In this document: one piece after another, positions 1 through 38,534 of the stretch
Layout of the letters: every line of letters begins with the position of its first letter
How positions within the stretch are numbered: position 1 is the first letter of the stretch
Assembly: GCF_011839805.1 (NCBI RefSeq)
Contig: NZ_VWPY01000041.1
Location: forward strand, 1-38,534
From: Kineococcus rubinsiae
GTDB taxonomy: Bacteria; Actinomycetota; Actinomycetes; Actinomycetales; Kineococcaceae
Direction of reading: 5' to 3'
DNA: 38,534 nt
Translations under genes and position numbers: made by a program
Notes under the pieces: model-generated
Seen by the model: only the letters and a program-made list of their open reading frames with translations
The model's database searches: none
Told to the model about the DNA's origin: nothing

Positions 1-895
1 GGTGCAGGCCGCGGCGCAGCACGGCCAGCAGCTCCTGCGACGTGCCCGGGGGCAGCTGCGCGGCGGCCCGCCGCGCCGGGCGGCGTCGCCCGGCGGGCGG
101 CGCCTCCCCCGTCAGCGCGCACCAGCACACCGCGGCCAGCCCGTACACGTCCCCGGCCGCCCCCGGCTCCTCCGCGAGCGCCGCGGGGTCGGCGAAGCCG
201 GGGGTGCCGAGGACGCTGCCGGGGCGGCGGCCCAGCGCCCGGGCCAGGCCGAGGTCGGCCAGCAGGGCCTCGCCGCGGGCGTCGAGCAGGACGTTGCCGG
301 GGCTGAGGTCGCCGTGCACGACCCCCGCGGCGTGCAGCTCCTCGAGGGCGGGCCCCAGCGAGGCGAGCAGGCCGACGACCTCGGCCGTCCCGAGGCGGCG
401 GCGGGCGCGCAGCAGGTCGGCGAGGCTGCCCCCGGCGGCCAGGTCCAGGACGAGCACGGGCCGTCCCCCGCCGTCGCGGGAGATGTCGTGGACGGCGACG
501 AGCCGCGGGTGGCGCACGCGCCGCAGGAGCGCGAGCTCGCGGAGCAGGTCGGTGCTCCCGCCGGGGGCCGCGTCGGCGTGCAGGACCTTCAGGGCCCGCC
601 GCTCGCCGTCGGGGCCGGTGCCGGCCCAGACGGTGCCGCTGGCGCCCGCGCCGAGCTCCTCGCCGACCTCGTAGCCGTCCACGACCGGCCGGCGCGGGCC
701 GAGCTCGTCGGCCATCAGCCGGGCCCGGGCGCCACCGGTGCGGTGCAGCACACCGCCGTCCGGGCCGTCGCCCCCGGCGGGGACGAGGGCCGGGACCCCG
801 CGGTGGCGGCCGCCCCCGGACGGCGGCGCGGCGCGGTCCGGCACCACCGCGGCGCTCACGTCGGCGTCGTCGTCGGACCAGCTGTCGAGGCTCAC
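1..895 (-). CDS. Serine/threonine protein kinase-like protein, C-terminus cut by window edge
   Basis: About 298 codons lie in the window and the frame runs off the left edge. After a 60-70 residue low-complexity N-terminus, a Hanks-type kinase fold is visible: glycine loop GAGASGTVW at residues 82-90, ALKVL with the presumed ATP lysine K103, catalytic loop HGDLSPGN at 194-201, metal-binding ADLGLAR with D214, and GTPGFADP at 230-237. The catalytic loop is odd: the Arg of HRD is Gly and the usual Lys two residues after Asp is Ser, so activity or regulation may be atypical. The GTG at 895 is chosen because G/C third-position codons continue up to it. ATG at 715 (residue 61) is a possible shorter start. 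It is divergent from the FAD oxidoreductase gene. Whether membrane or PASTA sensor domains follow cannot be seen. Confidence 0.85.
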   Translation of the reverse strand, partial: MSLDSWSDDDADVSAAVVPDRAAPPSGGGRHRGVPALVPAGGDGPDGGVLHRTGGARARLMADELGPRRPVVDGYEVGEELGAGASGTVWAGTGPDGERRALKVLHADAAPGGSTDLLRELALLRRVRHPRLVAVHDISRDGGGRPVLVLDLAAGGSLADLLRARRRLGTAEVVGLLASLGPALEELHAAGVVHGDLSPGNVLLDARGEALLADLGLARALGRRPGSVLGTPGFADPAALAEEPGAAGDVYGLAAVCWCALTGEAPPAGRRRPARRAAAQLPPGTSQELLAVLRRGLH

Positions 896-996
896 GGGAG
901 CAGACAACCGCACCTCGCGCGGGCGCCGCGGGCGTCGTCCACAGGCAAGATCACGACGCGGCCGCGTCCGGGCAGGCCCCCCGGCGTGGGCCTGGG

Positions 997-1002
997 TAGG
1001 CT
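997..1002 (+). promoter_or_regulatory. Candidate leaderless promoter -10 hexamer TAGGCT
   Basis: TAGGCT ends 7 nt before the GTG at 1010 and there is no Shine-Dalgarno sequence between them. This spacing fits transcription starting at the start codon, as is common in actinomycetes. No clear -35 is visible. Confidence 0.5.
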
Positions 1003-1009
1003 CGCCCGC

Positions 1010-2317
1010 GTGATCGACAGTGCCGCAGCGTCCCTGCCCACGTCCGCCGACGTCGTCGTGGTCGGAGCCGGAGTCGCCGGCCTGGCCTGCGCCAAGCACC
1101 TCGCGGCCGCGGGCATCGAGGTGGTCGTCGTCGAGGCCTCCGACGGCATCGGCGGCCGGGTGCGCAGCGACGTGGTGGGCAGCTTCCGCGTCGACCGCGG
1201 CTTCCAGCTCCTGAACCCCGCCTACCCCGAAGTCGCCAAGGTCCTCGACGTCGGCGCGCTGGACCTGCAGACCTTCGACGCCGGAGTGGCCGTGGCCCGC
1301 GGCGGTGTCGTCTCCGCCGTGCGCGACCCCCGCCGCCACCCCGCGGGCGTCCTCGGCGCCCTGCGCTTCCCGCTCGGCTCGCTCGCGGAGAAGACGGCGC
1401 TGGTCCGCTGGGCGCTGGGCTCGGCCTCGACGGCGGACCTGCGCCGCGAGGACTCGACGTGGGCGCAGGGCCTGGACGAGGCCGGCGTCGACGGCGAGCT
1501 GCGCCACAGCGTGATCGAGCCCTTCCTGGCCGGGGTCCTCGGCGAGGCGGCCGGCACCACGTCGCGGCGCTTCGTCGACCTGCTGCTGCGCACCTTCCTG
1601 CGGGGCACCCCCGGGCTGCCCGCGGGCGGCATGCAGGCCGTGCCGGACCAGCTGGCGGCCTCGCTGCCCGCGGGCAGCATCGTCACGGGCGTGGAGGTGG
1701 CCCACGTCGGGCACGGACCGCGCTCCCTCGTCGTCGAGACGCCGCAGGGCGGGCTCAGCACCACCGCGATCGTCGTCGCGACGGGGGGCGCGGCGGCCGC
1801 CCACCTCACGGGCCTGCCCGAGCCGGAGGCCCACGACCTCGGCACCTTCTGGTTCGCGGCGGCCTCCTCCCCCGCGCCCGCGGGACGCGAGAAGCTGCTG
1901 CACCTCGACGGCGACCGCACCGGGCCCGTGGTGAACACCGCGGTGGTCTCCGCCGTGGCCCCGAGCTACGTCCTGGCCGCCGCCGACCACCGGGCGCTCA
2001 TCTCGGCGCAGGTGCTGGGCGCCGACGTGGGCTCCGACGTCGAGACCGCCGTCCGGGCGCAGCTCGGGCGGGTCTACGGCGTGGACACCCGGGCGTGGAC
2101 CCTCGTGGCGGCGCACTCGATCCCGCAGGCGCTGCCCGCGGTCGCCCCGCCCTTCGACGGCGGACAGCCCGTCGACCTGGGCGAGGGCGTCTTCGTCGCG
2201 GGCGACCACCGCGAGAACGCGTCCCTGCAGGGTGCCCTGGTCTCCGGCCGCCGCGCCGCCGACGCGGTCCTCACGAACCTCGGCTACGGGCGCCGCCCGG
2301 CCGCGCTGACCGCGTGA
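1010..2317 (+). CDS. FAD-dependent oxidoreductase (flavin amine oxidase / phytoene desaturase-like)
   Basis: A 435-residue flavoprotein. The dinucleotide-binding motif VVVVGAGVAGLACAKHL lies near residues 15-31. It is followed by an acidic strand end (VVEASDGIGGR, E42, then the GGR that contacts FAD phosphates) and a C-terminal FAD motif GVFVAGDHRENASLQGAL that closes the flavin site. This architecture belongs to the NAD(P)-binding Rossmann / amino-oxidase superfamily, including protoporphyrinogen oxidase and carotenoid desaturases; the substrate cannot be told. There is no signal peptide, so it is probably cytosolic. The GTG at 1010 is preferred because a TAGGCT hexamer sits 7 nt upstream; the frame stays open to the left only because the opposite strand codes for the kinase. 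Its stop overlaps the next gene's GTG by 4 bp, so the two are likely co-translated. Confidence 0.85.
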   Translation: MIDSAAASLPTSADVVVVGAGVAGLACAKHLAAAGIEVVVVEASDGIGGRVRSDVVGSFRVDRGFQLLNPAYPEVAKVLDVGALDLQTFDAGVAVARGGVVSAVRDPRRHPAGVLGALRFPLGSLAEKTALVRWALGSASTADLRREDSTWAQGLDEAGVDGELRHSVIEPFLAGVLGEAAGTTSRRFVDLLLRTFLRGTPGLPAGGMQAVPDQLAASLPAGSIVTGVEVAHVGHGPRSLVVETPQGGLSTTAIVVATGGAAAAHLTGLPEPEAHDLGTFWFAAASSPAPAGREKLLHLDGDRTGPVVNTAVVSAVAPSYVLAAADHRALISAQVLGADVGSDVETAVRAQLGRVYGVDTRAWTLVAAHSIPQALPAVAPPFDGGQPVDLGEGVFVAGDHRENASLQGALVSGRRAADAVLTNLGYGRRPAALTA

Positions 2318-25749: not shown

Positions 25750-26988
25750 TCACCCGCCGAGGGCGAGGGGCTCCGGCTCGTCGTGCAGGTCGGTGGTCAC
25801 GGCCGTGGCCCGGACGTGGTCGAGGGCGCGCCAGACCGCCCCGACCGTGACGACGTCCACCCCGAGCTCCGAGGCGTGCACCTGCGGCACCGGCGGGTCG
25901 AAGTAGCGCGGCAGCCGCTGCAGCGCGGTGGCGAGCACCGGTTCCGCCGAAGCCGCCACGGCCCCGGCCACGACGACGCGCTCGGTGTCGAAGGCGCTCG
26001 CGAGGGTCGCGACGACGCGGGCCGTGACGTCGCCGACCGCGGCCAGGACGTCCAGCGCGAGCTCGTCGCCGGCCCTCGCCGCCGCGAAGACGTCCTCCGC
26101 CTCGGGGGCCGCGGGCCGGCGCAGGACCGAGGGCTGCGTGCTCCCGGCCAGGGCGCGGCGGGCCCCGTCCCGGGCGCGCGCGGCGATCCCGTCGGCGGAA
26201 CCCACGCCCTCGACCAGGTCGAGGAAGCGCATCTCCCCCGCCCCGCCGCGGGCGCCGCGCACCAGGGTGCCGTCCTCGACGACGCCCGCGCCGAAGCGCT
26301 CGCCGGCCAGCAGGGTGACGTAGCTGCGCACGCCGCGGCCGTGGCCCCGCCAGCCCTCGGCCAGCGCGGCCAGGTTCGCGTCGTTGTCCACGAGCACCGT
26401 CCAGCCGTGAGCGGCCGCGAACTGCCCACCGAGGTCGGGGTTCATCCGGGCCCAGAAGTCGTTGCCGCGCGCCGGGGTGAGGCCCGCGGCGTCGACGGGC
26501 GCCGGGACCCCCACGGCCACGGCGAGCAGGTGCGCCTCGGGCACCGCGGCGTCGTGCAGGGCCGCGCGGACCGTGGTCGCGATGCTCTCCAGTCGGCCGG
26601 CGGCGGTCGCGCGCCGCGAGGACGCGAGGACCTCCTCGTGCCCGAGCACCTCGCCGTGCAGGTCGGTGACCGTCGCGCTGATGCGGTGCTCGCCCGCGTC
26701 CACGCCGGCGACGACCCGTCCGCGACCGTCGAAGCCGTAGCGGCGCGCGGGGCGGCCCTTGCGGTAGTCGCCGTGCTCGCGCTGGTTCTCGACCTCGCGC
26801 ACCCAGCCCAGCTCGATGAGCTCCTCGCACACGTCGTGCGTCGTGGCGCGCGAGAGCCCCGTCACGGCCATGACGTCCGACCCCGTCACGGGCGCCGAGC
26901 CCCACACCACGTCCAGCACGGCCGCGGCGTTGGCCTCGCGCAGGCGCCGCAGCGCCGTCGGCGCCCCCGCTCCGTGGTCCTGAGTCAC
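25750..26988 (-). CDS. ROK-family transcriptional regulator
   Basis: A 412-residue repressor-type ROK protein. The winged helix-turn-helix is at about 10-75 (LRRLREANAAAVLDVVWGSA; GSDVMAVTGLSRATTHDVCE). The ROK sugar-kinase-like domain follows: VVAGVDAGEHRISATVTDLH, VAVGVPAPVDAAGL, VLVDNDANLAALAEGW, GERFGAGVVEDGTLVRGARGGAGEM. The CxCGxxGCxE zinc-binding loop that normally follows GGAGE is missing (text runs RFLDLVEGVGSADG), so kinase activity is unlikely and the protein is a sensor. It is divergent from the alpha-glucosidase and sugar ABC genes, its likely targets. AGGAGG lies 9 nt before GTG 26988. Convergent with panB, 24 bp apart. Confidence 0.9.
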   Translation of the reverse strand: MTQDHGAGAPTALRRLREANAAAVLDVVWGSAPVTGSDVMAVTGLSRATTHDVCEELIELGWVREVENQREHGDYRKGRPARRYGFDGRGRVVAGVDAGEHRISATVTDLHGEVLGHEEVLASSRRATAAGRLESIATTVRAALHDAAVPEAHLLAVAVGVPAPVDAAGLTPARGNDFWARMNPDLGGQFAAAHGWTVLVDNDANLAALAEGWRGHGRGVRSYVTLLAGERFGAGVVEDGTLVRGARGGAGEMRFLDLVEGVGSADGIAARARDGARRALAGSTQPSVLRRPAAPEAEDVFAAARAGDELALDVLAAVGDVTARVVATLASAFDTERVVVAGAVAASAEPVLATALQRLPRYFDPPVPQVHASELGVDVVTVGAVWRALDHVRATAVTTDLHDEPEPLALGG

Positions 26989-26993
26989 GTTCC

Positions 26994-27051
26994 TTGACCT
27001 CCTGCTCGATGCGGCTTACTTTAGCCACGCCTTAGATTTAGGCTCCGCATC
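26994..27051. promoter_or_regulatory. Divergent promoter/operator between ROK regulator and alpha-glucosidase genes
   Basis: Plus-strand promoter TTGACC (26994-26999), 17-nt spacer, TACTTT (27017-27022). It is followed by an A/T-rich island, rare in this genome, with two similar blocks CTTACTTTAGCC (27015-27026) and CTTAGATTTAGG (27031-27042). These sit within the inverted repeat GATGCGG (27008-27014) / CCGCATC (27045-27051). The layout fits repression of both directions by the ROK protein. ROK operators are usually A/T-rich, which agrees. Confidence 0.6.
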
Positions 27052-27071
27052 AATGAGGAGGGCAGCAGCCC

Positions 27072-28765
<1,694 letters not shown>

Positions 28766-28774
28766 CGGCCCCCG

Positions 28775-28800
28775 CCCCGGCGACACCGACGTCGCCGGGG
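28775..28800 (+). terminator. Intercistronic hairpin between alpha-glucosidase and binding-protein genes
   Basis: CCCCGGCGAC (28775-28784) pairs perfectly with GTCGCCGGGG (28791-28800), loop ACCGAC. It may attenuate transcription or protect the 5' end of the binding-protein mRNA. Confidence 0.5.
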
Positions 28801-28827
28801 CACCCCCACCCCCCGGGAGACGACGAC

Positions 28828-30111
28828 GTGCCCACTGCCCCAGCCCCCCTCAGCCGGCGGGCGCTGCTGCGCGCCACCGGCGCCGGCCTCGCGACGGCCG
28901 CCCTCGCCGGGTGCGGCGACCCCACCTCCGCGGCCGGGCGCAGCAGCGTCCGCTTCTTCCAGAACAAGCCCGAGGTGATCGAGTACTTCGCGGCGCTGGT
29001 CGCGGAGTTCGACGCCGCCCAGGACCGCGTGCAGGCGGTCCACGACTCCTCGCAGACGCCCCTGGTGCCGCAGTTCGTCCGCAACGCCCCGCCGGACCTG
29101 GCCGCCTGGAACTACAACCTGGAGGTCGGGGGCTACGTCTCGACGGGCGTCCTCACGGACCTCTCGGACCTGCCCGAGGCGCAGCGCGTCGACCCCAAGT
29201 ACCAGTCCCTGGTCGACCAGTTCGCCCGCAACGGCGGCGAGACGAACGTGCTGCCGTACTCGGTCACCTCGGCCGGCGTCATCTACAACGCCCGCCTGTT
29301 CGAGCAGAACGGCGTCGCGGTGCCCCAGACGTGGAGCGAGCTCGTCGCGGCCTGCCAGACCTTCCGCGCCGCCGGGGTGACGCCGCTCTACCTCACCGCG
29401 CAGGAGGTCTGGACGCTGCAGCAGGGCCTGTTCGACTACTGCACGGGCAGCGCCGTCGACGTGGCGGGGTTCTTCGCGGACCTGCGGGCCCAGGGCACCG
29501 ACGCCGGGCCCGACGCCGACGTCTCGTTCTCGAAGGTGTTCGCGGAGGCCGCGGAGAAGATGGTCGAGCTGGCCTCCTACGCCAACCCCGACTCCGCGAG
29601 CCGCGCCTACGCCGACGGCAACCTGGCCTTCGGGCGGGGTGAGGCGGCCATGTACCTGCAGGGCCCGTGGGCCCTGGGCGAGGTCTCCAAGGTGGACCCG
29701 GCGCTGCCGCTGGGCACCTTCCCGCTGCCGATGACCGAGGAGCCCGGGCAGGCCGCGGCCCGCGTGAACCTCGACCTGGCCCTCTGGATCCCCACGGCCT
29801 CGCAGGAGCAGGGCGCAGCGCGCACCTTCCTGCAGTGGCTCATGGGCCCCAAGGTCATCGCCCGCTACAACGACGACAACCTCGCGACGTCACCGCTGCG
29901 CGACGCCGCCCCGCTGCAGGACCCGCGCCTGGTGGGCCTGCAGCCCGCGCTCGACGCCGGCCGCATCTACCAGGGCGCCAGCACCTACGTCCCGCAGTCG
30001 ATCCCCGTGGGGAACTACCTGCAGGACGCCGTGCGCACCGGGGACGGCGGGCAGCTGCTGCGCCGCATCGACGAGGACTGGGCGCGGCTCGCCGCCCGCT
30101 CGGCCGCCTGA
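28828..30111 (+). CDS. Sugar ABC transporter substrate-binding lipoprotein
   Basis: A 427-residue extracytoplasmic binding protein of the CUT1 type (MalE-like, SBP family 1). The signal sequence contains SRRALLRATGAGLATAALAGC: twin arginines at 10-11 suggest possible Tat export, and the lipobox LAGC puts the lipid on C29. The mature protein has TNVLPYSVTSAGVIYNARLFEQNG, a classic SBP_1 stretch, then FGRGEAAMYLQGPWALGEVS and AARTFLQWLMGPKVIARYND. It likely binds alpha-glucosides (isomaltose, maltose or trehalose), inferred from the adjacent GH13 and ROK genes. GTG 28828 follows GGGAGA by 7 nt. Confidence 0.92.
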   Translation: MPTAPAPLSRRALLRATGAGLATAALAGCGDPTSAAGRSSVRFFQNKPEVIEYFAALVAEFDAAQDRVQAVHDSSQTPLVPQFVRNAPPDLAAWNYNLEVGGYVSTGVLTDLSDLPEAQRVDPKYQSLVDQFARNGGETNVLPYSVTSAGVIYNARLFEQNGVAVPQTWSELVAACQTFRAAGVTPLYLTAQEVWTLQQGLFDYCTGSAVDVAGFFADLRAQGTDAGPDADVSFSKVFAEAAEKMVELASYANPDSASRAYADGNLAFGRGEAAMYLQGPWALGEVSKVDPALPLGTFPLPMTEEPGQAAARVNLDLALWIPTASQEQGAARTFLQWLMGPKVIARYNDDNLATSPLRDAAPLQDPRLVGLQPALDAGRIYQGASTYVPQSIPVGNYLQDAVRTGDGGQLLRRIDEDWARLAARSAA

Positions 30112-30136
30112 CCCGCCCACGACCGAAGGAGATCTC

Positions 30137-31108
30137 GTGGCCACCACCGCAGCCCCGTCCTCGCGCGGGGAGTCCCCGCGCGGGAGGTCCTCCCGCGGGA
30201 GGTCCCCGCAGCCGGACGACCTGTCCGTGACCCGCAGCCGCGCGGCCCGCCGCCGCCCCGACGGCGTGTCCTACCTGTTCCTGCTGCCCGCCATCGTGCT
30301 GTTCACGGTGTTCATCACCCTGCCCGCGCTGGCCGGGGCGTTCATCTCCCTCACCGACTACGTCGGGTTCGGCGAGTGGCGCTTCCTCGGCCTGGCCAAC
30401 TACGCCGTGCTGTTCACCGACCCGAACGTGCTGCAGTCCTACGGCTTCACCATCGGGTTCTCCGTCGTCACCGTGGTGCTCGTCAACGTCGTGGCGCTCG
30501 TGCTGGCCCTGGGGCTCAACGCCCGCATCAAGCTCAAGACGGCCCTGCGCGGCGCGTTCTTCCTGCCGATGGTCGTGTCGGGCATCGTCATCGCCTTCGT
30601 CTTCAACTACCTGTTCTCCACCTCGCTGCCCGCGCTGGCCGCCACCCTGGGCCTCACCGGGCTGGAGCAGAGCCTGCTCGCGAACCCGGACCTGGCGTGG
30701 ATCGCGGTCGTCCTGGTGACGGCGTGGCAGGCGGTCCCGAGCGCGCTGATCATCTACCTGGCGGGGCTGCTCGCGGTGCCCGAGGACGTGTACGAGGCCG
30801 CGGCCCTGGACGGCGCGACCGCCTGGCGGCAGTTCTGGGGCATCACCCTGCCGCTGGTGTCGGGCTACGTCGTCATCAACACCGTGCTGGGGTTCAAGAA
30901 CTTCCTCAACGCCTACGACATCATCGTCGGCCTCACCGACGGCGGTCCCGGCACCGCCACGCGCAGCGTGGCGATGACGATCTTCACCGGCTTCACCAGC
31001 GGCGACTACGCCTACCAGATGGCCAACGCGGTGATCTTCTTCGTCCTCACCGTCGTCATCTCCGTCCTGCAGCTCCAGATCATCCGCCGCCGAGGAGTGT
31101 CGCTCTGA
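30137..31108 (+). CDS. Sugar ABC transporter permease (MalF-type)
   Basis: A 323-residue inner-membrane permease with six predicted helices (first YLFLLPAIVLFTVFITLPAL, near 46-65). The EAA loop that docks the ATPase is visible as EAAALDGATAWRQFWGITLP. The N-terminal 43 residues are a cytosolic, repetitive Ser/Arg/Gly/Pro stretch (SSRGESPRGRSSRGRSPQ) that is unusual for the family and encoded by strong palindromes. It starts at GTG 30137 with GAAGGAG about 6 nt upstream, 25 bp after the binding-protein gene. Its stop overlaps the next permease's ATG (TGATG). Confidence 0.92.
   Translation: MATTAAPSSRGESPRGRSSRGRSPQPDDLSVTRSRAARRRPDGVSYLFLLPAIVLFTVFITLPALAGAFISLTDYVGFGEWRFLGLANYAVLFTDPNVLQSYGFTIGFSVVTVVLVNVVALVLALGLNARIKLKTALRGAFFLPMVVSGIVIAFVFNYLFSTSLPALAATLGLTGLEQSLLANPDLAWIAVVLVTAWQAVPSALIIYLAGLLAVPEDVYEAAALDGATAWRQFWGITLPLVSGYVVINTVLGFKNFLNAYDIIVGLTDGGPGTATRSVAMTIFTGFTSGDYAYQMANAVIFFVLTVVISVLQLQIIRRRGVSL
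30165..30196. repeat. Consecutive palindromes inside the 5' coding region of the first permease gene
   Basis: GCGGGGAGTCCCCGC (30165-30179) and GCGGGAGGTCCTCCCGC (30180-30196) are each perfect around one central base. A third, related GCGGGAGGTCCCCGC copy overlaps the end at 30195-30209. They start 28 nt after the start codon, so they could slow translation or block decay from the 3' side. Confidence 0.55.
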
Positions 31109-32004
31109 TGGTCACCGTCGACCCCGCACGTGTCGCCTCCCGCGGCGTCCGTCCCCAGCGCCCCCTCCAGGTCGTCGGCCGCCGCCGGCGGGGCCGCGGC
31201 TGGGGCCTGACCGCGCTGCTGCTGCTCGCGGCCCTGACCGTCCTCGTGCCGCTCTACTTCGCCGTCGTCATGGCGTTCAAGACGCCCGAGCAGGCCGTCG
31301 CCGGCACGGGGTTCGCCCTGCCGTCGCCGCTGAACTGGGGGAGCTTCGCCGACGCGTGGACCCTCACGGGCTTCGCCCGCGCCTTCCTGGTCTCGGTGGC
31401 CGTCAGCGCCGTGAGCGTCGCGGGCGTGCTGCTGCTGGCCTCCTGCGCCTCGTACGCGATCGTGCGCAACTGGGAGCACCGGCTGTTCCGCTGGTCCTAC
31501 GTCTACCTGCTGGCCGCGATGTTCATCCCCTTCCCGGTCGTGGCCCTGCCGCAGGTCAAGCTCACCGCGGTGCTCGGGCTGGCCAACCCGGGCGGGGTGG
31601 CGCTGCTGCACATCATGTTCCAGCTCTCGTTCAGCGTGCTGCTGTACTCCGCGTTCCTGCGCTCGATCCCGGCCGAGCTCGAGGAGGCCGCCCGCATGGA
31701 CGGCGCGAGCACGTGGCAGGTGTTCTGGCGGCTGATCTTCCCCCTGCTGGCGCCCATGAACGCCACGGTCGGGATCTTCGCCTTCCTCGCCAGCTGGAAC
31801 GACTACATGATGCCGTCGCTCATCACGGCCGACCAGACGCTGCAGACCATCCCGGTCGTGCAGAAGATCTTCCAGCTGGCCTTCTCCACCGACTACAACG
31901 TGGCCTTCGCGTCCTACCTGATGGCGATGGCGCCCACGATCGTCGTCTACGTGTTCGCCCAGCGCTGGGTGCTGTCCGGGGTCACGCGCGGCGCCATCAA
32001 GTGA
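31108..32004 (+). CDS. Sugar ABC transporter permease (MalG-type)
   Basis: A 298-residue partner permease. Six helices are predicted (first GLTALLLLAALTVLVPLYFA). The EAA motif is ELEEAARMDGASTWQVFWRL, and the C-terminus QRWVLSGVTRGAIK is typical for MalG-like subunits. The ATG at 31108 overlaps the previous stop by one base, so translation is coupled. No ATP-binding subunit gene follows. In actinomycetes such CUT1 systems commonly share a multi-purpose ATPase (MsiK) encoded elsewhere, which I infer here. Confidence 0.93.
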   Translation: MVTVDPARVASRGVRPQRPLQVVGRRRRGRGWGLTALLLLAALTVLVPLYFAVVMAFKTPEQAVAGTGFALPSPLNWGSFADAWTLTGFARAFLVSVAVSAVSVAGVLLLASCASYAIVRNWEHRLFRWSYVYLLAAMFIPFPVVALPQVKLTAVLGLANPGGVALLHIMFQLSFSVLLYSAFLRSIPAELEEAARMDGASTWQVFWRLIFPLLAPMNATVGIFAFLASWNDYMMPSLITADQTLQTIPVVQKIFQLAFSTDYNVAFASYLMAMAPTIVVYVFAQRWVLSGVTRGAIK

Positions 32005-32047
32005 CGCGCGGCTGACGGGTCCGGCCGCCGGTCAGGGCGGCGGCGGA

Positions 32048-32088
32048 CCAGGGGGAACCCCGCACGATCGCTGCGCGATTCCCCCTGG
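32048..32088. terminator. Hairpin terminator after the sugar transport operon
   Basis: CCAGGGGGAA (32048-32057) pairs with TTCCCCCTGG (32079-32088). The 21-nt loop holds a smaller CGCA/TGCG stem. A second weaker GCCGCC/GGCGGC hairpin lies just upstream, near 32030-32045. Confidence 0.6.
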
Positions 32089-32120
32089 CGCCGAGGGGCG
32101 GGGGCGCGGACCCTGCCCTC

Positions 32121-32408
32121 ATGACGTCCGTCGTCGCCCACCCCCTGAAGGGTCTCCGCTCGTCCCTCGCCTCCCGGCACGCGGGAGCCACCTCGGCACC
32201 GCCGCCGCTCGCGGCCGGTGCTCCCCCGGCCGCTGCTCCCCCGGCTTCCACCGGGCTGCGGGGGTGGCGGTCCGCCCTGGCGGTCGCCGCCGCCGTCCTG
32301 CTGCTCCTGCTCCTCGCGGCCGTCCTGCTCGTGGCGACGCCGCTGCCCCTGGACGGCCCGGTGCCGTCGCCGGTCCCGCAGGCACCGGCCACGCCACCGC
32401 TCGGCTGA
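32121..32408 (+). CDS. Small hypothetical single-pass membrane protein
   Basis: 95 residues: a basic, Ala/Pro-rich N-terminus, one membrane helix near 51-74 (ALAVAAAVLLLLLLAAVLLV) and a short Pro-rich outer tail. I do not recognise a family. It lies alone between the sugar operon terminator and the convergent HAD gene, with no strong ribosome-binding site before ATG 32121. Composition alone makes it a possible real gene, but chance cannot be excluded in such GC-rich DNA. Confidence 0.4.
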   Translation: MTSVVAHPLKGLRSSLASRHAGATSAPPPLAAGAPPAAAPPASTGLRGWRSALAVAAAVLLLLLLAAVLLVATPLPLDGPVPSPVPQAPATPPLG

Positions 32409-32440
32409 GCGTCCGCGGCGGGAGCGGTCCGCGGCGGGCC

Positions 32441-33256
32441 TCAGCGCAGGGCGAGCAGCAGCTGCTCGGCGATGACCTCGCCAGCGGCGGCCCCGGCCGC
32501 GTCCACCAGGACGACGCCGGGGTCGTCCCAGCCGCTGCGCAGCAGCTCCCCGTGCCCCGGGCGCCAGGCGCGCTCGGCCGCGAGGAGCAGGTCGACGTCG
32601 AGCAGCGAGTCACCGGCGCCGACGAACCCGCGGGCGCCGCGGCGCCGCACCACCTCGGCCACGGCGGCCGACTTCGTCAGGGCCCGGGGCACGGCGTAGA
32701 GCTTGCGGCCCTGTAGCGAGACGCCGTAGCCCCAGCCGTCGAGCAGCGCGGTGAGCTCGCCGAGGCGCGGCCCCTCCAGCGGGGGCCGCTGGCCCTCGCG
32801 CAGGACGACGTAGGCGAACAGCCCCTCGACGCTGCGGACCGCGGGGTCCCCGGAGCCTGGCACCAGGGCCTGCAGCTCCGCGGCGAGCCGCGCGAGGACG
32901 TCGTGGACGGCGGGTAGCGCCTGCGCCGCGGCCAGGTTGCCGCGCACCTGCGCCGTCCAGGCCGCGTCCGCGACGCCGTCGACGAGCAGGACCCCGCCGT
33001 TGGCGCACACCGCGAGGCGCGGCGGTGCCGCGGGCCAGCGGATGCGCGCGTACTGCGCCGGCGTCCGCGTCGTGACGGGCAGGAAGTCGCCCGTGGCGAC
33101 GAGGTCGGCGAGCAGGGCCCACGCCCGCGGGGTGACCCAGGAGATGGTGCGCCCCTCGTACTCCTCCACGGCCACGAGGTCCGCGACGTCGCGGGCCGAG
33201 GACCGCTCGGAGAAGACGAGGGTCTGGTCGAGGTCGCTGGCGGCGAGCAGGCTCAC
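32441..33256 (-). CDS. HAD-superfamily hydrolase of the Ter-linked biosynthetic cluster
   Basis: A 271-residue haloacid dehalogenase-fold phosphatase. Motif I is SDLDQTLVF with nucleophile D8 and acid D10. Motif II is the threonine-rich FLPVTTRTPAQY, a lysine lies in ALTKSAAVAEVV, and motif IV is FVGAGDSLLDVDLLLAA with the Mg2+ aspartates. The cap region between motifs II and III is of the Cof/sucrose-phosphatase kind. The start GTG 33256 is interlocked with the stop of the preceding gene (GTGTGA), so it is the last gene of a translationally coupled operon. In the predicted pathway it would remove phosphate from a nucleotide-like intermediate; that role is inferred from genomic context, not shown. 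Confidence 0.85.
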   Translation of the reverse strand: MSLLAASDLDQTLVFSERSSARDVADLVAVEEYEGRTISWVTPRAWALLADLVATGDFLPVTTRTPAQYARIRWPAAPPRLAVCANGGVLLVDGVADAAWTAQVRGNLAAAQALPAVHDVLARLAAELQALVPGSGDPAVRSVEGLFAYVVLREGQRPPLEGPRLGELTALLDGWGYGVSLQGRKLYAVPRALTKSAAVAEVVRRRGARGFVGAGDSLLDVDLLLAAERAWRPGHGELLRSGWDDPGVVLVDAAGAAAGEVIAEQLLLALR

Positions 33257-34449
33257 ACGGCCCGCCCGTCGGCGCCCGTGGCCCCGCGCGTGAACCGGGG
33301 GTGGATGAGGCCGACGGCGCTGTAGGCCAGCCCGGGCACCTCCTCGACGGGGACACCGCGCTGGTCGGCGAGCAGCCGCACGTGGGAGAGGTCGCCGGGG
33401 TGGCCGAGCTCGGCGTCCGGGCGCACGAGGACCCGCCACGGCACGCGGCGCAGCAGCACCCGGGTCGTCTCCCCCACCCCGGGCTTCACGAGGTTCACGT
33501 CCCCGATCTCGTAGCGCTGCGAGATGTCCTCCACGGCGGCCCACCCCGAGAACGTCGCGGTGCGCTCGCCCGCCTGCACCGCGTCAGCCGCGGCGGGCAC
33601 CTCGGCGGTCACGTCGTCGAACAGCATCGAGACGGCGTCGCGGAACTCCCCCGACACGTCGGCGGGCGCGAGGTCGGCGTAGAACTTCGCGCCGTGGAAC
33701 TGCCCGGGCCGCAGCAGCCGGTCGTTGAGGACCGTGCGGCTGACGAGGCCGGACACCGTGGAGTTCAGGCACGCCGAGGGGATGAGGTAGTCCTCCCGGG
33801 TCCCGTACGTCCGCACGCAGGACCCCGGGTCGGCGAGGACGGCGAGGTCGTCGGAGAACCCCGGCACCCCGGAGTCGAGCAGGGCCTGCGTGAGCTCGCG
33901 GACGATCGCGCCCTTGCCCGTCCAGCCGTCGACGAACACCACCGAGGCCGGGTCGTGGTGGGCGGCGAGCCAGCGCAGCGCGACGACGTCGAGGCCCCGC
34001 CCGCGCACGATCGACACGGCGCGGTGCGGCCAGTCCAGGCCCGAGCGCGCGGCCCAGCGGCGCAGCAGGACCCCGACGGGGGTGCCGGCCCGCGCCAGGG
34101 AGGCGAGGACGACCTCCTCGCCCCGCTCACGGCGCAGCAGCTCGGCGACGACCCCGACGCCGAGGGCCACCCGCCGCGCCGAGCGCTGCAGCGCCTCGCC
34201 GAACAGGGCCTGGTACTCCGCGCTGGGCTGGTACTCCACGGGCAGGGACTCGGCGTAGTGCGCGCCGCCGGACTGCACGGCCTCCTCGCGCTCCTCGGCC
34301 GGGGCCTCCAGCGCGACGCCCGAGAGGTCGGTGAGCAGCCAGCTGACCTCGTCCGCCGCGTACGAGCCGAACGCGGGCCCGACCAGGGGCTCCGGCAGCC
34401 CGGCGGCCGAGCCGGTCCGAGGGGTGGAGGCGGGCGGTACGGCGGTCAC
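33253..34449 (-). CDS. StiP family protein (PRTase_1-like; annotated elsewhere as cysteine protease)
   Basis: A 398-residue protein that I place in the StiP family (Pfam PF11202, also described as a phosphoribosyltransferase-like domain). Visible blocks are FGSYAADEVSWLLTDLSGVA, HYAESLPVEYQPSAEYQALF, VVLASLARAGTPVGVLLRRW and VVFVDGWTGKGAIVREL (170-186), followed by YLIPSACLNSTVSGLVSRTV with one Cys. The VFVDGWTGKGAI stretch looks like a PRPP-binding loop, favouring a transferase role over a protease role. It overlaps the upstream PRTase gene by 4 bp and the HAD gene downstream. The GTG at 34449 is fixed by this overlap. Confidence 0.82.
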   Translation of the reverse strand: MTAVPPASTPRTGSAAGLPEPLVGPAFGSYAADEVSWLLTDLSGVALEAPAEEREEAVQSGGAHYAESLPVEYQPSAEYQALFGEALQRSARRVALGVGVVAELLRRERGEEVVLASLARAGTPVGVLLRRWAARSGLDWPHRAVSIVRGRGLDVVALRWLAAHHDPASVVFVDGWTGKGAIVRELTQALLDSGVPGFSDDLAVLADPGSCVRTYGTREDYLIPSACLNSTVSGLVSRTVLNDRLLRPGQFHGAKFYADLAPADVSGEFRDAVSMLFDDVTAEVPAAADAVQAGERTATFSGWAAVEDISQRYEIGDVNLVKPGVGETTRVLLRRVPWRVLVRPDAELGHPGDLSHVRLLADQRGVPVEEVPGLAYSAVGLIHPRFTRGATGADGRAV

Positions 34450-35873
34450 GGGGAGGCCTCCGGGGTGGTGGGCGGGTCGTCGGGCAGCGTCACCAGCAGC
34501 AGCCGGTGCGCGAGGGGGCGCAGCGCGGCCAGCACCCCGTCGGGGGCCGCGAGCGCCGCCGGGTCGCAGGACGCGTCCACGACCAGCACGCAGACCGCCC
34601 AGGGCCCGCCGGGGCGGGAGACGTTGTGCGCGTAGCGCGGGCCGGGGCCGTCGACGGGCGCGTCGGCGCTGCGGAAGGCGACCGAGGAGCGCACGGCGTA
34701 GCCGGGGTCGTCGACGGCGAGCACGGGCGAGCGGGTGGTCGAGCTCGAGCGGACCTCGCGGCCGGGGCCGGCGAGCCCGACCGCGAGCAGCTGCGGGACG
34801 TGCAGCAGCTCCTCCGAGCCCAGGACGAGCACGGGCCCGGGGCCCGGGCCGACGGCCGCGCCGACCTCGGCGACCAGCCCGGGCAGCGCGGCCACGAGGG
34901 CCTCGCGGGCCGCGGGTGACGTCCCGTGCCGGGCGGTCAGCGGCACCCCGGCGGGCCAGCGCGGCCGCACGTGCTCGACGTCGGCGGGCACCGCGCGGGG
35001 CCGCGGCACGGGCGCGGGCGGTGCGGCCGCGACGAGCGCGCTGCCGGCGGCGAGGACGCCGTCGGGCAGCACGACGGAGCCCTCGACGAGACTCACGACG
35101 TCGATGCGGGTGCCGAGCCGGGCCGCGAGGCCGGCCAGCCGGGCGCGGTCGGCGGGTCCGCGGGCGTCCAGCAGGCCGGCGACGACGTAGTGCCGGCGCG
35201 GGGTGCGGGCGTGCAGGACCTCCAGCGTGTTCGCCACCGTACGACCGGTCGAGAGCTCGTCGTCGACGAGCACCAGCGGCGCAGCGGGGTCCGCGAGCGC
35301 CCGCAGCACCGCGGCGTCGGTGGGCAGCAGCTGGTGGCCGGTGGCGTGGGAGTGCTCCTCCTCGAAGCCCGCGTAGCCCGCAGCGGCCGGGACCGCGCGC
35401 CGCGTGGAGTGCAGGCACGGGCCGCCGAGCGCGTCGGCGACGCCCTGGCCGAGGCCCGTCGCCGTCTCGGCGTAGCCGATGACCAGCGCGTCCGGCCGCG
35501 CGGGCGGGCGGACGCTGGCCGCGAGGACGTCCGCGGCGGCGGCGCCGTCGCCCGCGAGCGCCGCCCGCCACCGGGCGGTCGTCGGCCCGGGGGCGTCCGG
35601 CACACCCAGCGCCTGGGCGACGCGCCCGCCGAGGCGCAGCGCCGCGGCCCGCACGAGCTGCGGGTCGGTGGGCACGTGCTTGCCGAGGACCCGGGAGACG
35701 AGCAGGTGGGCGCGGCGCGGGTTGCGGCGCAGCGCGAGCCCGAGCAGGTCGTGGACGTCGAGGCCGTCGGCCCCGGGGGCGCCGGTGAGCTCCAGGCCGA
35801 GGCGCTCGCTCACCCAGCCCCCGGACCACACCGGCTCGGCGGGACCGGCCGGGGGGCGGGAGTCCAGGCTCAC
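34446..35873 (-). CDS. Phosphoribosyltransferase with C-terminal TRSP domain (PRTase_2/TRSP)
   Basis: A 475-residue protein of the Ter-linked phosphoribosyltransferase group. The N-terminal half holds NPRRAHLLVSRVLGKHVPTD (51-70), ALVIGYAETATGLGQGVADA, the FEEEHSHATGHQL motif, and a canonical PRPP loop APLVLVDDELSTGRTVANTL (198-217). The C-terminal half (from about 310) contains RHGTSP and VLVLGSEELLHVPQLLAVGL and ends in a compact domain with SVAFRSADAPVDGPGPRYAH, the TRSP-type region. It would transfer a phosphoribosyl group to an unknown acceptor. It overlaps neighbours by 4 bp on both sides; GTG 35873. Confidence 0.88.
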   Translation of the reverse strand: MSLDSRPPAGPAEPVWSGGWVSERLGLELTGAPGADGLDVHDLLGLALRRNPRRAHLLVSRVLGKHVPTDPQLVRAAALRLGGRVAQALGVPDAPGPTTARWRAALAGDGAAAADVLAASVRPPARPDALVIGYAETATGLGQGVADALGGPCLHSTRRAVPAAAGYAGFEEEHSHATGHQLLPTDAAVLRALADPAAPLVLVDDELSTGRTVANTLEVLHARTPRRHYVVAGLLDARGPADRARLAGLAARLGTRIDVVSLVEGSVVLPDGVLAAGSALVAAAPPAPVPRPRAVPADVEHVRPRWPAGVPLTARHGTSPAAREALVAALPGLVAEVGAAVGPGPGPVLVLGSEELLHVPQLLAVGLAGPGREVRSSSTTRSPVLAVDDPGYAVRSSVAFRSADAPVDGPGPRYAHNVSRPGGPWAVCVLVVDASCDPAALAAPDGVLAALRPLAHRLLLVTLPDDPPTTPEASP

Positions 35874-37075
35874 CCGCCCGCCGCCTTGATGGCGACGGTC
35901 GCCTCGTCGAGGGCCTTGAGGACCTGGACGTAGGTGACGCCCTCGCACGCGACGCCGAACGCGTCCGCGCGCGCGAGCACGCGCTCGGCCCACGCCCGGT
36001 GCGGCCCGGCCTCGTTCATCTTGTTGCGGTAGGAGGAGCGCATGGCGCCGCCGGAGACCTGGCCCACGACGTCGGAGGCGTCGGTCCAGTCCTCGTGGGT
36101 GACGACCGACATGGCGTGCACGACGGCCACGTGCGAGGGGTGGATGACGGTCTTGCCCTGCAGGCCGTTGACGGTGTCCAGGACGATCTCGCGCACGAGC
36201 CCGTCGAGGTCGTCGTCGATGAGCTGCTCGCGCAACTCCTCGGCCCCGGACTCGGCGAAGGGGCCCGGCGACAGGACGCTGCGGAACACCCGCTCGCCCG
36301 TGCCGAAGTGCTCCCAGACGGGCGCGGTGATCGGGTGGCCCGTCCCGTCCGCCCGGCCCAGGACGTTGACGACGTCACCGAGGACGTCGGCGACGACGCG
36401 GACGTCCCACACGGTGCTGCCGCGCGGGCGGCGCAGGCCGTAGGCCGCCGACAGGTCGGTGGCACCCGTGCGCACGGCCAGGACGAGGTCGCGGTTGGCG
36501 TCGAGGACCTCGCGGATGCGGAACAGCGCCTCGTGCCGGGTGTCCAGGTGGGCGACGTCGCGGCTCTCCAGCACCGGCATGGCCCACAGCCGCCGCCCCG
36601 CCAGGTCCGAGGCCCGACGCACCGCGGCCAGCCAGTCGGCGGGGTCGGGCTGCCCCGCGCCGCCGAACTTCGGCAGCACGAACCCGAGCAGGCAGTCCAG
36701 GCCCACGCCCGCACGCTCGACGACGCTGAGCAGCTGCTCGGGCGTGCGGGTCCGCACGAACAGCATGAGCGGCGGGTCCTCGCGCCAGCCGGGCGTGCGG
36801 GCCAGCCCGGTCAGCTCGCGCACGAGGATCTCCTCGGCCTCGGCGACGCGATCGTCGGGGACGGAGTCCTCCAGGCACGCCACCGCGCTGACCGAGCCGC
36901 GCCGGGCCAGGCGCAGCAGGTCACCCGCGAGCCGCTGGCGGGTAGCGGGGCAGTAGATGGTGGCGCCGAGCGCGACGGCGAGCTGGTCGCGGCCCGCCGT
37001 AAGGTCGACGGGTCGCGGCGGCACGCAGAAGAGGCGCTCGAGCTGCTCAGGGCTCAGCGTGGAGAAGTGACGCAC
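35870..37075 (-). CDS. HpcH/HpaI aldolase / citrate lyase-like TIM-barrel enzyme of the Ter cluster
   Basis: A 401-residue CitE-like enzyme of the HpcH/HpaI superfamily, which cleaves or joins C-C bonds of 2-oxo acid or CoA substrates with Mg2+. Recognisable text includes ATIYCPATRQRLAGDLLRLA, SVSAVACLEDSVPDDRVAEA (metal-binding acidic residues), LLGFVLPKFGGAGQPD, LWAMPVLESRDVAHLDTRHE and GLQGKTVIHPSHVAVVHAMS, where PKF and KTVIHPSH are family hallmarks. It is larger than typical CitE. GTG 37075 lies 31 bp after the terD stop, and its own stop overlaps the PRTase gene by 4 bp. The substrate is unknown. Confidence 0.9.
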   Translation of the reverse strand: MRHFSTLSPEQLERLFCVPPRPVDLTAGRDQLAVALGATIYCPATRQRLAGDLLRLARRGSVSAVACLEDSVPDDRVAEAEEILVRELTGLARTPGWREDPPLMLFVRTRTPEQLLSVVERAGVGLDCLLGFVLPKFGGAGQPDPADWLAAVRRASDLAGRRLWAMPVLESRDVAHLDTRHEALFRIREVLDANRDLVLAVRTGATDLSAAYGLRRPRGSTVWDVRVVADVLGDVVNVLGRADGTGHPITAPVWEHFGTGERVFRSVLSPGPFAESGAEELREQLIDDDLDGLVREIVLDTVNGLQGKTVIHPSHVAVVHAMSVVTHEDWTDASDVVGQVSGGAMRSSYRNKMNEAGPHRAWAERVLARADAFGVACEGVTYVQVLKALDEATVAIKAAGG

Positions 37076-37106
37076 CGGGGGGCGCCTGCCGCGGTCTTCG
37101 CGCGGC

Positions 37107-37688
37107 TCAGAGGAAGGGGACGACGGCGGGGACGAGGTCCTTGACGGTCCGCCCCGTCGCGATCGCGCCGATGGCCGTCATGGCCCACCCGGACCCGTCG
37201 CGCGCGACCTTGGCCATGACCTGCGCGTTGTGCTTCCCGGACCCGCTGAGCTCGTAGCGGGCGATCTCCGTCGGCTGCGGGCCGGCGGCGTCCAGCAGGC
37301 GGCAGAACGCGTTCTCGATCTGCGTGAAGTCCTGCCCCGTGAAGCTGTTGACCGTGAAGACGAGGCTGGTCACCGCGGCGGGCACGGCCGTGAGGTCGAC
37401 GATGATCGACTCGTCGTCGCCCTCGCCCGCGCCGGTGCGGTTGTCCCCCGTGTGCGTGACCGAGCCGTCGCGGCTGCGCAGCTGCTGGAACCAGACCTGG
37501 TCGACGAGCGCCCCGCGGGCGTCGAAGAGCAGGCACGACGCGTCGAGGTCGACGTCGATCGACTTCCTGCGCCCGAAGAGGCCCTTGGCGCTGGCGTCCC
37601 AGCCCAGGCCCATGACGACGCGCGTGAGCTGACCCCCGCCGGACTTCTCCAGCGACAACCGCTGTCCCTTGGCCAGGCTGACCGACAT
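37107..37688 (-). CDS. terD: TerD family protein
   Basis: A 193-residue cytosolic TerD/CABP-type protein linked to tellurite resistance, phage inhibition and general stress. It starts MSVSLAKGQRLSLEKSGGGQ, then VVMGLGWDAS. The Ca2+-binding loop DGSVTHTGDNRTGAGEGDDE is complete at about 74-93. It ends with NAFCRLLDAAG, YELSGSGKHNAQVMAKVARD and the usual GWAMTAIGAIATGRTVKDLV. The ATG at 37688 has a near-ideal AGGAGG on the minus strand 5 nt upstream. It is the first gene after the TerA-like protein and precedes the enzymatic genes, so it is part of one polycistronic unit. Confidence 0.95.
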   Translation of the reverse strand: MSVSLAKGQRLSLEKSGGGQLTRVVMGLGWDASAKGLFGRRKSIDVDLDASCLLFDARGALVDQVWFQQLRSRDGSVTHTGDNRTGAGEGDDESIIVDLTAVPAAVTSLVFTVNSFTGQDFTQIENAFCRLLDAAGPQPTEIARYELSGSGKHNAQVMAKVARDGSGWAMTAIGAIATGRTVKDLVPAVVPFL

Positions 37689-37775
37689 GCCTACCTCCTC
37701 GTCGTGCGCGCAGGTGCGCGCGGCTGTGCGTGCCCTCGCAGGGAGGACGTCTGGTCGGGGCGCTCCGTTCCGCGC

Positions 37776-38534
37776 TCAGGCGGTGCGGGGCGTCGTCCCG
37801 CCCGGGCCCCACTCGAGGTCGTCGAAGCCGTAGGCGGCGGCGACCTCGGCCTGGGGGCCGGGGAAGAACTCGTTCTCGCGGCGGACCACGAGGTCGCCGG
37901 CGACGTGGTGCACCGAGGCGAGCGCGCAGGTGCGCGCCCCCGCCGGGGCACCGGCCGCCCACATCTGCAGCCGGCTGCCGTCGCGGCGCCGCACCGTCAG
38001 GTGCGGGGCCAGCGCCGCGAAGTCGGGCGCCTGCTCGTTCGTGGAGTACAGGTAGAGCACGAGGCGCCGCAGGACGTCCACGTGGCGGCCGTCGACGAGG
38101 AGCTCCTCCCCCGCCTCCTCGCTGCGCGGGCCGAGCCGCAGCACCTGCCGCGCGCCGTACCCCGGGGCCATGAGCAGGTCACCGAGGGACTGCACCGCCC
38201 CCGAGTGACGGTCCTGCGTCTCCCACAGGCACCCGAGGTGAACATCGGTGGAGCGTTGCAGCCCGCGCGCGGTCACCTGCCGCTCCCACTGCAGGAGGAT
38301 CCGCAGCGTGCCGCCCTCGCGCTGGGCGGCGGTGACGGTCGTGACGGGCGTCTCGTCGTCGAGCACGAGGCGCTCCTCGGACACCCGCGCCCGTCCCACC
38401 TCCGCGAGCGAGGGCGGTGGGGCGACGGGCGCCGTGCGGGCCGGGGCCGGCCGCACCGGTGCGGGCCGGACCGGTGGGGCCGGCGAGGTGGCGGGGGGTG
38501 TGGCCGGCGCGGGCGACGCCGGACGGACCACCGG
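37776..38534 (-). CDS. TerA-like tellurium-resistance family protein, 5' end beyond window
   Basis: About 252 residues are visible and the frame is open to the right edge; a GTG at 38531 is probably internal. A Pro/Ala/Arg-rich linker (about 40 residues, repeated APVRPAP-type text) leads into a TerA-type beta-sandwich domain: GGTLRILLQWERQ, STDVHLGCLWETQDRHSGAV, QSLGDLLMAPGYGARQ, RRLVLYLYSTNEQAPDFAAL and CALASVHHVAGDLVVRRENE, then EVAAAYGFDDLEWGPG. In longer homologues a TerD-like domain precedes the linker; here it would lie outside the window. It is upstream of terD with 87 bp between, on the same strand. Confidence 0.85.
   Translation of the reverse strand, partial: PVVRPASPAPATPPATSPAPPVRPAPVRPAPARTAPVAPPPSLAEVGRARVSEERLVLDDETPVTTVTAAQREGGTLRILLQWERQVTARGLQRSTDVHLGCLWETQDRHSGAVQSLGDLLMAPGYGARQVLRLGPRSEEAGEELLVDGRHVDVLRRLVLYLYSTNEQAPDFAALAPHLTVRRRDGSRLQMWAAGAPAGARTCALASVHHVAGDLVVRRENEFFPGPQAEVAAAYGFDDLEWGPGGTTPRTA

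Follow-up and report, generated by a model that had tools for sequence, protein, structure and literature searches.

A Ter-linked operon of Kineococcus rubinsiae and its paired phosphoribosyltransferase-type proteins

Introduction

What does a Ter stress locus make? To our knowledge no product has been identified for Ter clusters, though they are widespread, and a Ter biosynthetic module was reportedly described by Anantharaman, Iyer and Aravind in 2012. We addressed the question at a locus of the actinobacterium Kineococcus rubinsiae, in a 38,534-base stretch (the window) that is a complete contig (C55) of a 4.88 Mb genome and carries six genes, all on the minus strand, in its right-hand 6.1 kb (32441-38534). 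Two of these encode PRTase_2 and StiP, phosphoribosyltransferase-type (PRTase-type) proteins that are the irreducible core of the module. On balance, if not by much, we favor a reading in which paired phosphoribosyl transfers and dephosphorylation by a HAD phosphatase would yield a small phosphoribosylated metabolite for the Ter apparatus.

The module itself is already published, the Kineococcus operon being a further example, and both the PRTase_2-StiP fusion and the ATP-grasp-free form may already have been reported in the 2012 paper. The present analysis adds the paired, often fused PRTase-type core, the undermining of the protease name that StiP carries in databases, and a crystallised phosphatase in the HAD family. 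Among the papers listed in literature searches, we recognised none as solving the product or as linking the Pseudomonas aeruginosa phosphatase to ter genes.

Results

Six genes and their families

An original prediction, made from the DNA letters, had proposed six co-directional genes at this locus, and all six are minus-strand open frames. The features are as follows.

32441..33256, minus strand: HAD phosphatase, relative of trehalose-6-phosphate phosphatases (motifs I to IV, PDB relatives)
33253..34449, minus strand: StiP, a PRTase-fold domain plus a C-terminal PELOTA (L7Ae-like) domain, as predicted from Pfam, an AlphaFold model and PDB matches
33904..33939, minus strand: phosphoribosyl pyrophosphate (PRPP)-type loop of StiP, VFVDGWTGKGAI, with one acid, of VDGW-TGKG type
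34446..35873, minus strand: PRTase_2 (APRT-like) with TRSP domain (Pfam)
35870..37075, minus strand: C-C bond lyase, distant CitE/RipC relative (Pfam PF15617, PDB profile matches)
37107..37688, minus strand: TerD-family protein (PF02342, 8e-45)
37776..38534 (open frame 37776-38531), minus strand: TerA-like (TerD-fold) protein, cut at the contig edge (hhalign to TerD)
35870..35873, minus strand: GTGA overlap of lyase and PRTase_2 (sequence; GTG start putative)
34446..34449, minus strand: GTGA overlap of PRTase_2 and StiP, a junction that is the in-frame fusion point in most Streptomyces loci (GTG start putative)
33253..33256, minus strand: GTGA overlap of StiP and HAD, context GTGTGA (sequence; GTG start putative)

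The predicted families were right in substance. Domain searches, which the prediction had named as a possible refutation, placed both PRTase-type products where expected: 33253-34449 in PF11202 (3.1e-99) and PELOTA_1 (PF15608, 1.9e-32), and 34446-35873 in PRTase_2 (2.8e-61) and TRSP (1.3e-26). With StiP-PELOTA, PRTase_2-TRSP, lyase, HAD and Ter genes all present, the proposed link to the published Ter biosynthetic module holds. Pfam gives no match above the cut-off for either the HAD or the TerA-like protein. None of the six proteins has a PADLOC match at E<=0.01, and TerD alone has a match in PHROGs.

PRTase_2 and StiP occur together and are often fused

Co-occurrence was counted in 396 genomes of the phylum, by matches above the family cut-off. 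StiP was found in 19 and PRTase_2 in 19, and these are the same 19 genomes (hypergeometric p = 8e-33, a value overstated since the genomes are related); in each, the two share a contig, with their matches 591-934 bases apart. Below the cut-offs there are 70 extra PRTase_2 genomes (89 in total at E<=0.001), which we take for ordinary PRTases, and a single extra StiP match, in genome G264. The latter is PyrR, as its translation and pyrimidine-gene neighbors show, and it was removed from the counts. Presence was also counted by locus, in 100 loci of which 74 are >=18 kb, and all 74 carry both StiP and PRTase_2. A strong lyase match (1e-106 or better) is present in 16 of the 19 genomes, the three lyase-free ones carrying TerD, PRTase_2 and a diverged StiP; by locus, the lyase was not found in 4 of the 74 (the phage L131, the Bradyrhizobium elkanii plasmid L132, L138 and L139), and HAD was not found in 3 (L138, L139 and L144). 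The lyase thus lies outside the core. StiP is found in 12 of 12 searched genomes of the window's family, against 0 of 47 genomes from the order's remaining families. In the plasmid collection that was searched, 2,566 records match StiP, and the closest StiP from a named species, among the matches listed, is that of Kineococcus vitellinus (84% identity).

PRTase_2 and StiP form a single stop-free open frame, with a linker of varying length, in 85 of the 107 loci having both, and are separate in the other 22. A looser count gave 87, two of which were dropped for frame mismatch. The scan of relatives covered the best 80 of at least 584, so that fusion and gene-order counts lean to Streptomyces; the genomes of L031-L045 may duplicate named genomes in the set, L134 is apparently the same phage as L131, and L135 and L136 repeat L130 and L131. 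Fusion is also seen outside Streptomyces, in L018 (a sister genus in the window's family) and in L043 and L045 (another family). On a StiP tree, which has long branches for phage and Bacillota sequences and served only to count fusion changes, the fusion state changed at least 7 times, 5 of these being forced by well-supported branches. The number falls to 3 when five lone splits among fused Streptomyces (L058, L113, L071, L067 and L101), which may be assembly errors, are set aside. Because they are two proteins in one lineage but a single polypeptide elsewhere, PRTase_2 and StiP very probably act together. Duplication of one gene was considered as their origin and rejected, as the two profiles show no detectable similarity.

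PRTase_2 has a canonical PRPP loop and StiP a one-acid loop

PRTase_2 has a predicted PRTase fold, with adenine PRTases closest, and its PRPP loop is complete: VDDExxTGxT, with the DD acid pair, is invariant in two alignments (A5 and A8). The StiP loop, VDGW-TGKG, keeps the first acid, while the second acid of canonical PRTases is absent. Conservation was assessed in 114 near-full StiP sequences, leaving out 12 partial ones (L046-L048 and L138-L140, which cover three genomes in duplicate). The loop reads DGWTGKG in 111, DAWTGKG in 2 and DGWSGKG in 1, and it reads DGWTSGG in 6 of the partial sequences, from three genomes. D159, W161, G163-K164-G165, R104-A-G106, R134, D139 and H47-Y48 are invariant in all 114. 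Since only the first of the two adjacent acids is kept, StiP is filed as a PRTase fold and not as a canonical type I PRTase. The two ribosylation steps of the original prediction are accordingly plausible for PRTase_2, with its DD loop, but for StiP, which lacks the second acid, the chemistry is unproven.

A direct sequence search of PDB with StiP and PRTase_2 gave nothing at E<=1. The AlphaFold model of StiP (predicted local distance difference test [pLDDT] 84.1, predicted template modeling score 0.88) matches PyrR/HGPRT and CriT, a component of the Haemophilus influenzae type b capsule polymerase Bcs3 (PDB 8A0C); CriT is the best structural match, tied with PyrR. The model points to a PRTase fold with an L7Ae-like tail. 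With the StiP profile, 16 of the 22 PDB matches at E<=10 are to proteins of L7Ae, eL8, S12, Snu13 or RNase P p38 type, none of them stronger than E 0.06.

This predicted fold argues against the name under which StiP is filed. Pfam and NCBI product names, and a phrase in one paper, make it a cysteine protease, and actinobacterial and Bacillota sequences do share a Cys in an SxCLN motif. However, no Cys column is invariant among the 114 sequences: the best hold Cys in 108 and 109, and these are missing from Proteobacteria and phage sequences. With no invariant Cys and a PRTase fold predicted, we rejected the protease identity, which is scarcely credible.

StiP might instead be a PyrR-like, non-enzymatic regulator, an RNA-binding sensor of PRPP or nucleotides that is held at a fixed ratio with PRTase_2 and controls PRTase_2 output or the operon mRNA through PELOTA. 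We rate this as unlikely, though with an appreciable chance of being right. The invariant residues listed above exceed the seeming need of a regulator fold, and CriT is likewise without the adjacent acid pair, yet active, according to the part of PMC10299916 available to us.

The tail also permits a bolder idea, which we think quite improbable: StiP would be an RNA-directed ribosyltransferase, and the Ter product either a modification of bacterial RNA or, with PRTase_2 taking part, a ribosyl-disaccharide nucleotide. The L7Ae-like tail would hold a structured RNA, and the open, one-acid site would move phosphoribose to a ribose hydroxyl, a transfer of the kind made by Rit1 to eukaryotic initiator tRNA and by CriT to a capsule polymer. 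HAD, whose family has a member assayed on a disaccharide phosphate, would remove the phosphate; if so, the modification or nucleotide would mark or protect RNA under stress. PRPP-dependent RNA ribosylation has a precedent in Rit1, which is listed for eukaryotes only in the accessible portion of PMC7694415.

The HAD phosphatase has a crystallised relative

A HAD phosphatase had been predicted for the operon, and both its motifs and its PDB relatives agree. In a 12-sequence alignment (A7), motif I (DLDxT), motif II (T) and motif IV (GDSxxD) are kept, as is, nearly throughout, motif III (K); D8, D10, T62, D216 and D220 are invariant, and K195 nearly so. The protein matches PDB 6cj0/6d3v at 9.5e-17 (phmmer) and 8.9e-93 (profile).

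These structures, deposited as "Trehalose phosphatase," raise the question of whether the module turns sugar phosphates into a disaccharide, ribosylated or otherwise, in which case the HAD would be a trehalose-6-phosphate-type phosphatase and the product would resemble a sugar and not a nucleoside. In a Pseudomonas plasmid, the HAD of the Ter module (L133:11211-11966) is ~92% identical to 6d3v/6cj0 (230/251, hand count). The solved chain has Cys at positions 85 and 231 (also counted by hand), the residues named, in the available part of PMC6838324, for the extrachromosomal trehalose-6-phosphate phosphatase of P. aeruginosa, one of the trehalose-6-phosphate phosphatases tested there. The window HAD, however, is only 28% identical to the Pseudomonas HAD, PRTase_2 is closest to adenine PRTases, and no trehalose-6-phosphate synthase was noticed among the identified operon genes, no search having been aimed at one. 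We therefore consider a disaccharide product distinctly unlikely.

The lyase had been predicted to be HpcH/HpaI- or CitE-like (PF03328), an assignment that did not survive: PF03328 is not listed at E<=1, and the protein falls instead in PF15617 (C-C_Bond_Lyase) at 1.2e-106. Its profile reaches the distant CitE/RipC structures 3qll (1.6e-8), 1sgj and 6aq4, and E69, D70, R108, K136, E170 and D207 are invariant in nine sequences.

Gene order and overlaps are conserved

Lyase, PRTase_2, StiP and HAD are joined by three 4-base GTGA overlaps, set in GTGTGA at the StiP/HAD junction, as the interlocking of the last four genes had been described. Neither TerD and the lyase (gap of 31 bases) nor the TerA-like gene and TerD (87 bases) overlap. 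In eight relatives that were read, the order of all six genes is the same. A G precedes the upstream TGA at the lyase junction in 8/8 and the stop at the PRTase_2 junction in 8/8, one of which (the fused L018) shows the StiP stop instead; at the StiP junction a G precedes the stop in 6/8, and the remaining two have TGATG. In wider scans the order lyase-PRTase_2-StiP-HAD is found in 74 of 82 loci. Six of the eight exceptions have StiP within ~1.1 kb of a contig start, and the other two are L130, with a different order, and the phage L131. Gene order is conserved far beyond chance. Among annotated Bacillota plasmids, lyase, PRTase_2 and StiP are followed by HAD in Alkaliphilus and by a hypothetical protein, at the place of the HAD match, in Lactococcus, while no HAD was found after them in a Brevibacillus plasmid.

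A pattern scan of 31900-38534 gave no sigma-70-type promoter or terminator, a result of little weight at this G+C content. The other flank of the operon (25750-32004) is an apparent sugar-uptake locus with a ROK regulator, an alpha-amylase and an ABC transporter permease.

Further ter genes probably continue on a second contig

The TerA-like protein aligns with TerD (hhalign 95.4%, E 1.8e-8) and is 65% identical over 211 residues to its counterpart in the related locus L015. In the same genome, a TerC (DUF475) gene lies on contig C3 (bases 331-1287, minus strand). The order there, TerC, TerD, AIM24, two small related proteins and TelA, is that of L015, which has three small proteins. Because of this synteny, we infer that C55 continues, at its right end, into the left end of C3, the break probably falling within the Pro/Ala-rich start of the TerA-like gene, in a Pro/Ala-coding repeat. 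The further ter genes that the original prediction proposed to look for on the right would be TerC, TerD and TelA, provided that the junction is as synteny indicates. The small proteins between TelA and AIM24 (L142:3094-4973 and L015:4424-7042) share a C-terminal region of ~140 residues; a single one, from L015, has a Pfam match, a weak one (Rv2743c, 5e-4).

An ATP-grasp partner had also been expected past the right edge. None was found among the scanned upstream proteins of L015, nor in L142 (C3, 1-14000) on comparison with the Pseudomonas Ter ATP-grasp. With PF15632, 12 genomes of the family were scanned, and this genome has one match (2.9e-6, 60 of 131 positions, just over the cut-off), in a 1540-codon frame on another contig that, given its length, is presumably the large subunit of carbamoyl-phosphate synthetase. 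The model is unspecific, matching in 13 of 14 control genomes. Genomes G010 and G011 each have one extra partial match (2-3e-9), the frames being 431 and 440 codons long and not on the StiP contig. Of the 74 loci >=18 kb, an ATP-grasp was found in two, L130 and L133, in a scan with a single Pseudomonas query that may miss diverged ATP-grasps.

In these same two loci, a TerD domain fused to a trypsin-like protease lies beside the enzymes (L130:6877-8013, by Pfam; L133:8884-10023, annotated as trypsin-like). L130 (IMGVR_UViG_2660238583_000003, 65 kb) is classed as viral and has a proteobacterial module with ATP-grasp; it may be a plasmid.

Discussion

The six genes appear to belong to a larger Ter stress operon spanning two contigs and to form its downstream half, the probable order being TelA, two or three small related proteins, AIM24, TerD, TerC, TerA-like, TerD and then the enzymes. 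In the pathway that we propose, PRPP would be the common donor. PRTase_2 would act first, attaching phosphoribose to what is probably a nitrogen in a base-like ring, and StiP, whose one-acid loop recalls CriT, would follow, with either that same scaffold or a hydroxyl group as its target. HAD would strip the 5-phosphate that PRPP leaves behind, a role that CrpP plays for CriT, and the product may be a small phosphoribosylated metabolite that serves a membrane-linked Ter apparatus. The lyase, by providing or removing a carbon unit, and the ATP-grasp, in proteobacterial versions, would be add-ons that decorate the scaffold.

The closest precedent for this chemistry is Bcs3, in which, according to the accessible part of PMC10299916, CriT, a PRTase-fold O-phosphoribosyl transferase, and CrpP, a HAD phosphatase, are a working pair of PRPP transfer and phosphate removal. 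CriT resembles StiP in lacking the adjacent acid pair. It differs in that the StiP profile does not retrieve it from PDB by sequence at E<=10, its acceptor is the capsule polymer, and no RNA-binding domain is described for it in that part of the paper.

Several points weigh against phosphoribosylation by the pair. We know of no activity, substrate or product for the module. StiP, whose PRPP loop has lost the second acid, could be catalytically dead, and in three genomes of one actinobacterial lineage the loop Lys and Arg134 are lost as well. Loci L138, L139 and L140, from a distant actinobacterial family, have TerD genes, PRTase_2 and a diverged StiP of this kind (DGWTSGG, no Arg134), and no lyase or HAD was found alongside. 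Neither of these two enzymes is universal in the module. The conserved StiP segment 34-57 is modeled at pLDDT < 50, leaving the active site poorly defined. Foldseek matches of StiP are modest, with three at E<=0.001 and pyridoxal phosphate enzymes appearing from 3.7e-3 at lower probability, and no relationship between the profiles of StiP and PRTase_2 is detectable. Finally, the HAD has a single assayed relative, which is described as a trehalose-6-phosphate phosphatase (PMC6838324, in the part available).

Among known systems, the operon shares with the 2012 Ter biosynthetic module the PF15617 lyase, PRTase_2-TRSP, StiP-PELOTA and HAD beside TerD, TerC and TelA, and differs in that no ATP-grasp was found for it. 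That module is cited, in the part of PMC8115787 we could consult, as the predicted maker of a nucleoside-like metabolite, and a Ter module with PRTases and HAD is described as signal synthesis in an excerpt of Iyer et al. 2021 (PMC7824862), which also treats the Ter cluster of Acinetobacter phage vB_AbaM_ME3. In this jumbo phage, PRTase_2, HAD and StiP are adjacent and accompanied by TerD and a TerC-type protein, but the order is PRTase_2-HAD-StiP and no lyase was found. A tblastn search of phages with the window PRTase_2 gave no match, although ME3 has PRTase_2 by Pfam. The Pseudomonas kurunegalensis plasmid L133 has lyase, PRTase_2, StiP and HAD with TerD and TerC, but in the order ATP-grasp, trypsin-like protein, PRTase_2, HAD, StiP, lyase, second HAD. 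The P. aeruginosa extrachromosomal phosphatase (6cj0, 6d3v) belongs to the same HAD family as the operon HAD, and its close Pseudomonas relative is the protein with 28% identity to the window HAD.

For the Ter family, these findings reduce a vague "nucleoside-like metabolite" to a few assays that address it directly, using PRPP and two defined proteins, and a partner enzyme with a crystallised relative makes for a more direct hunt for the product.

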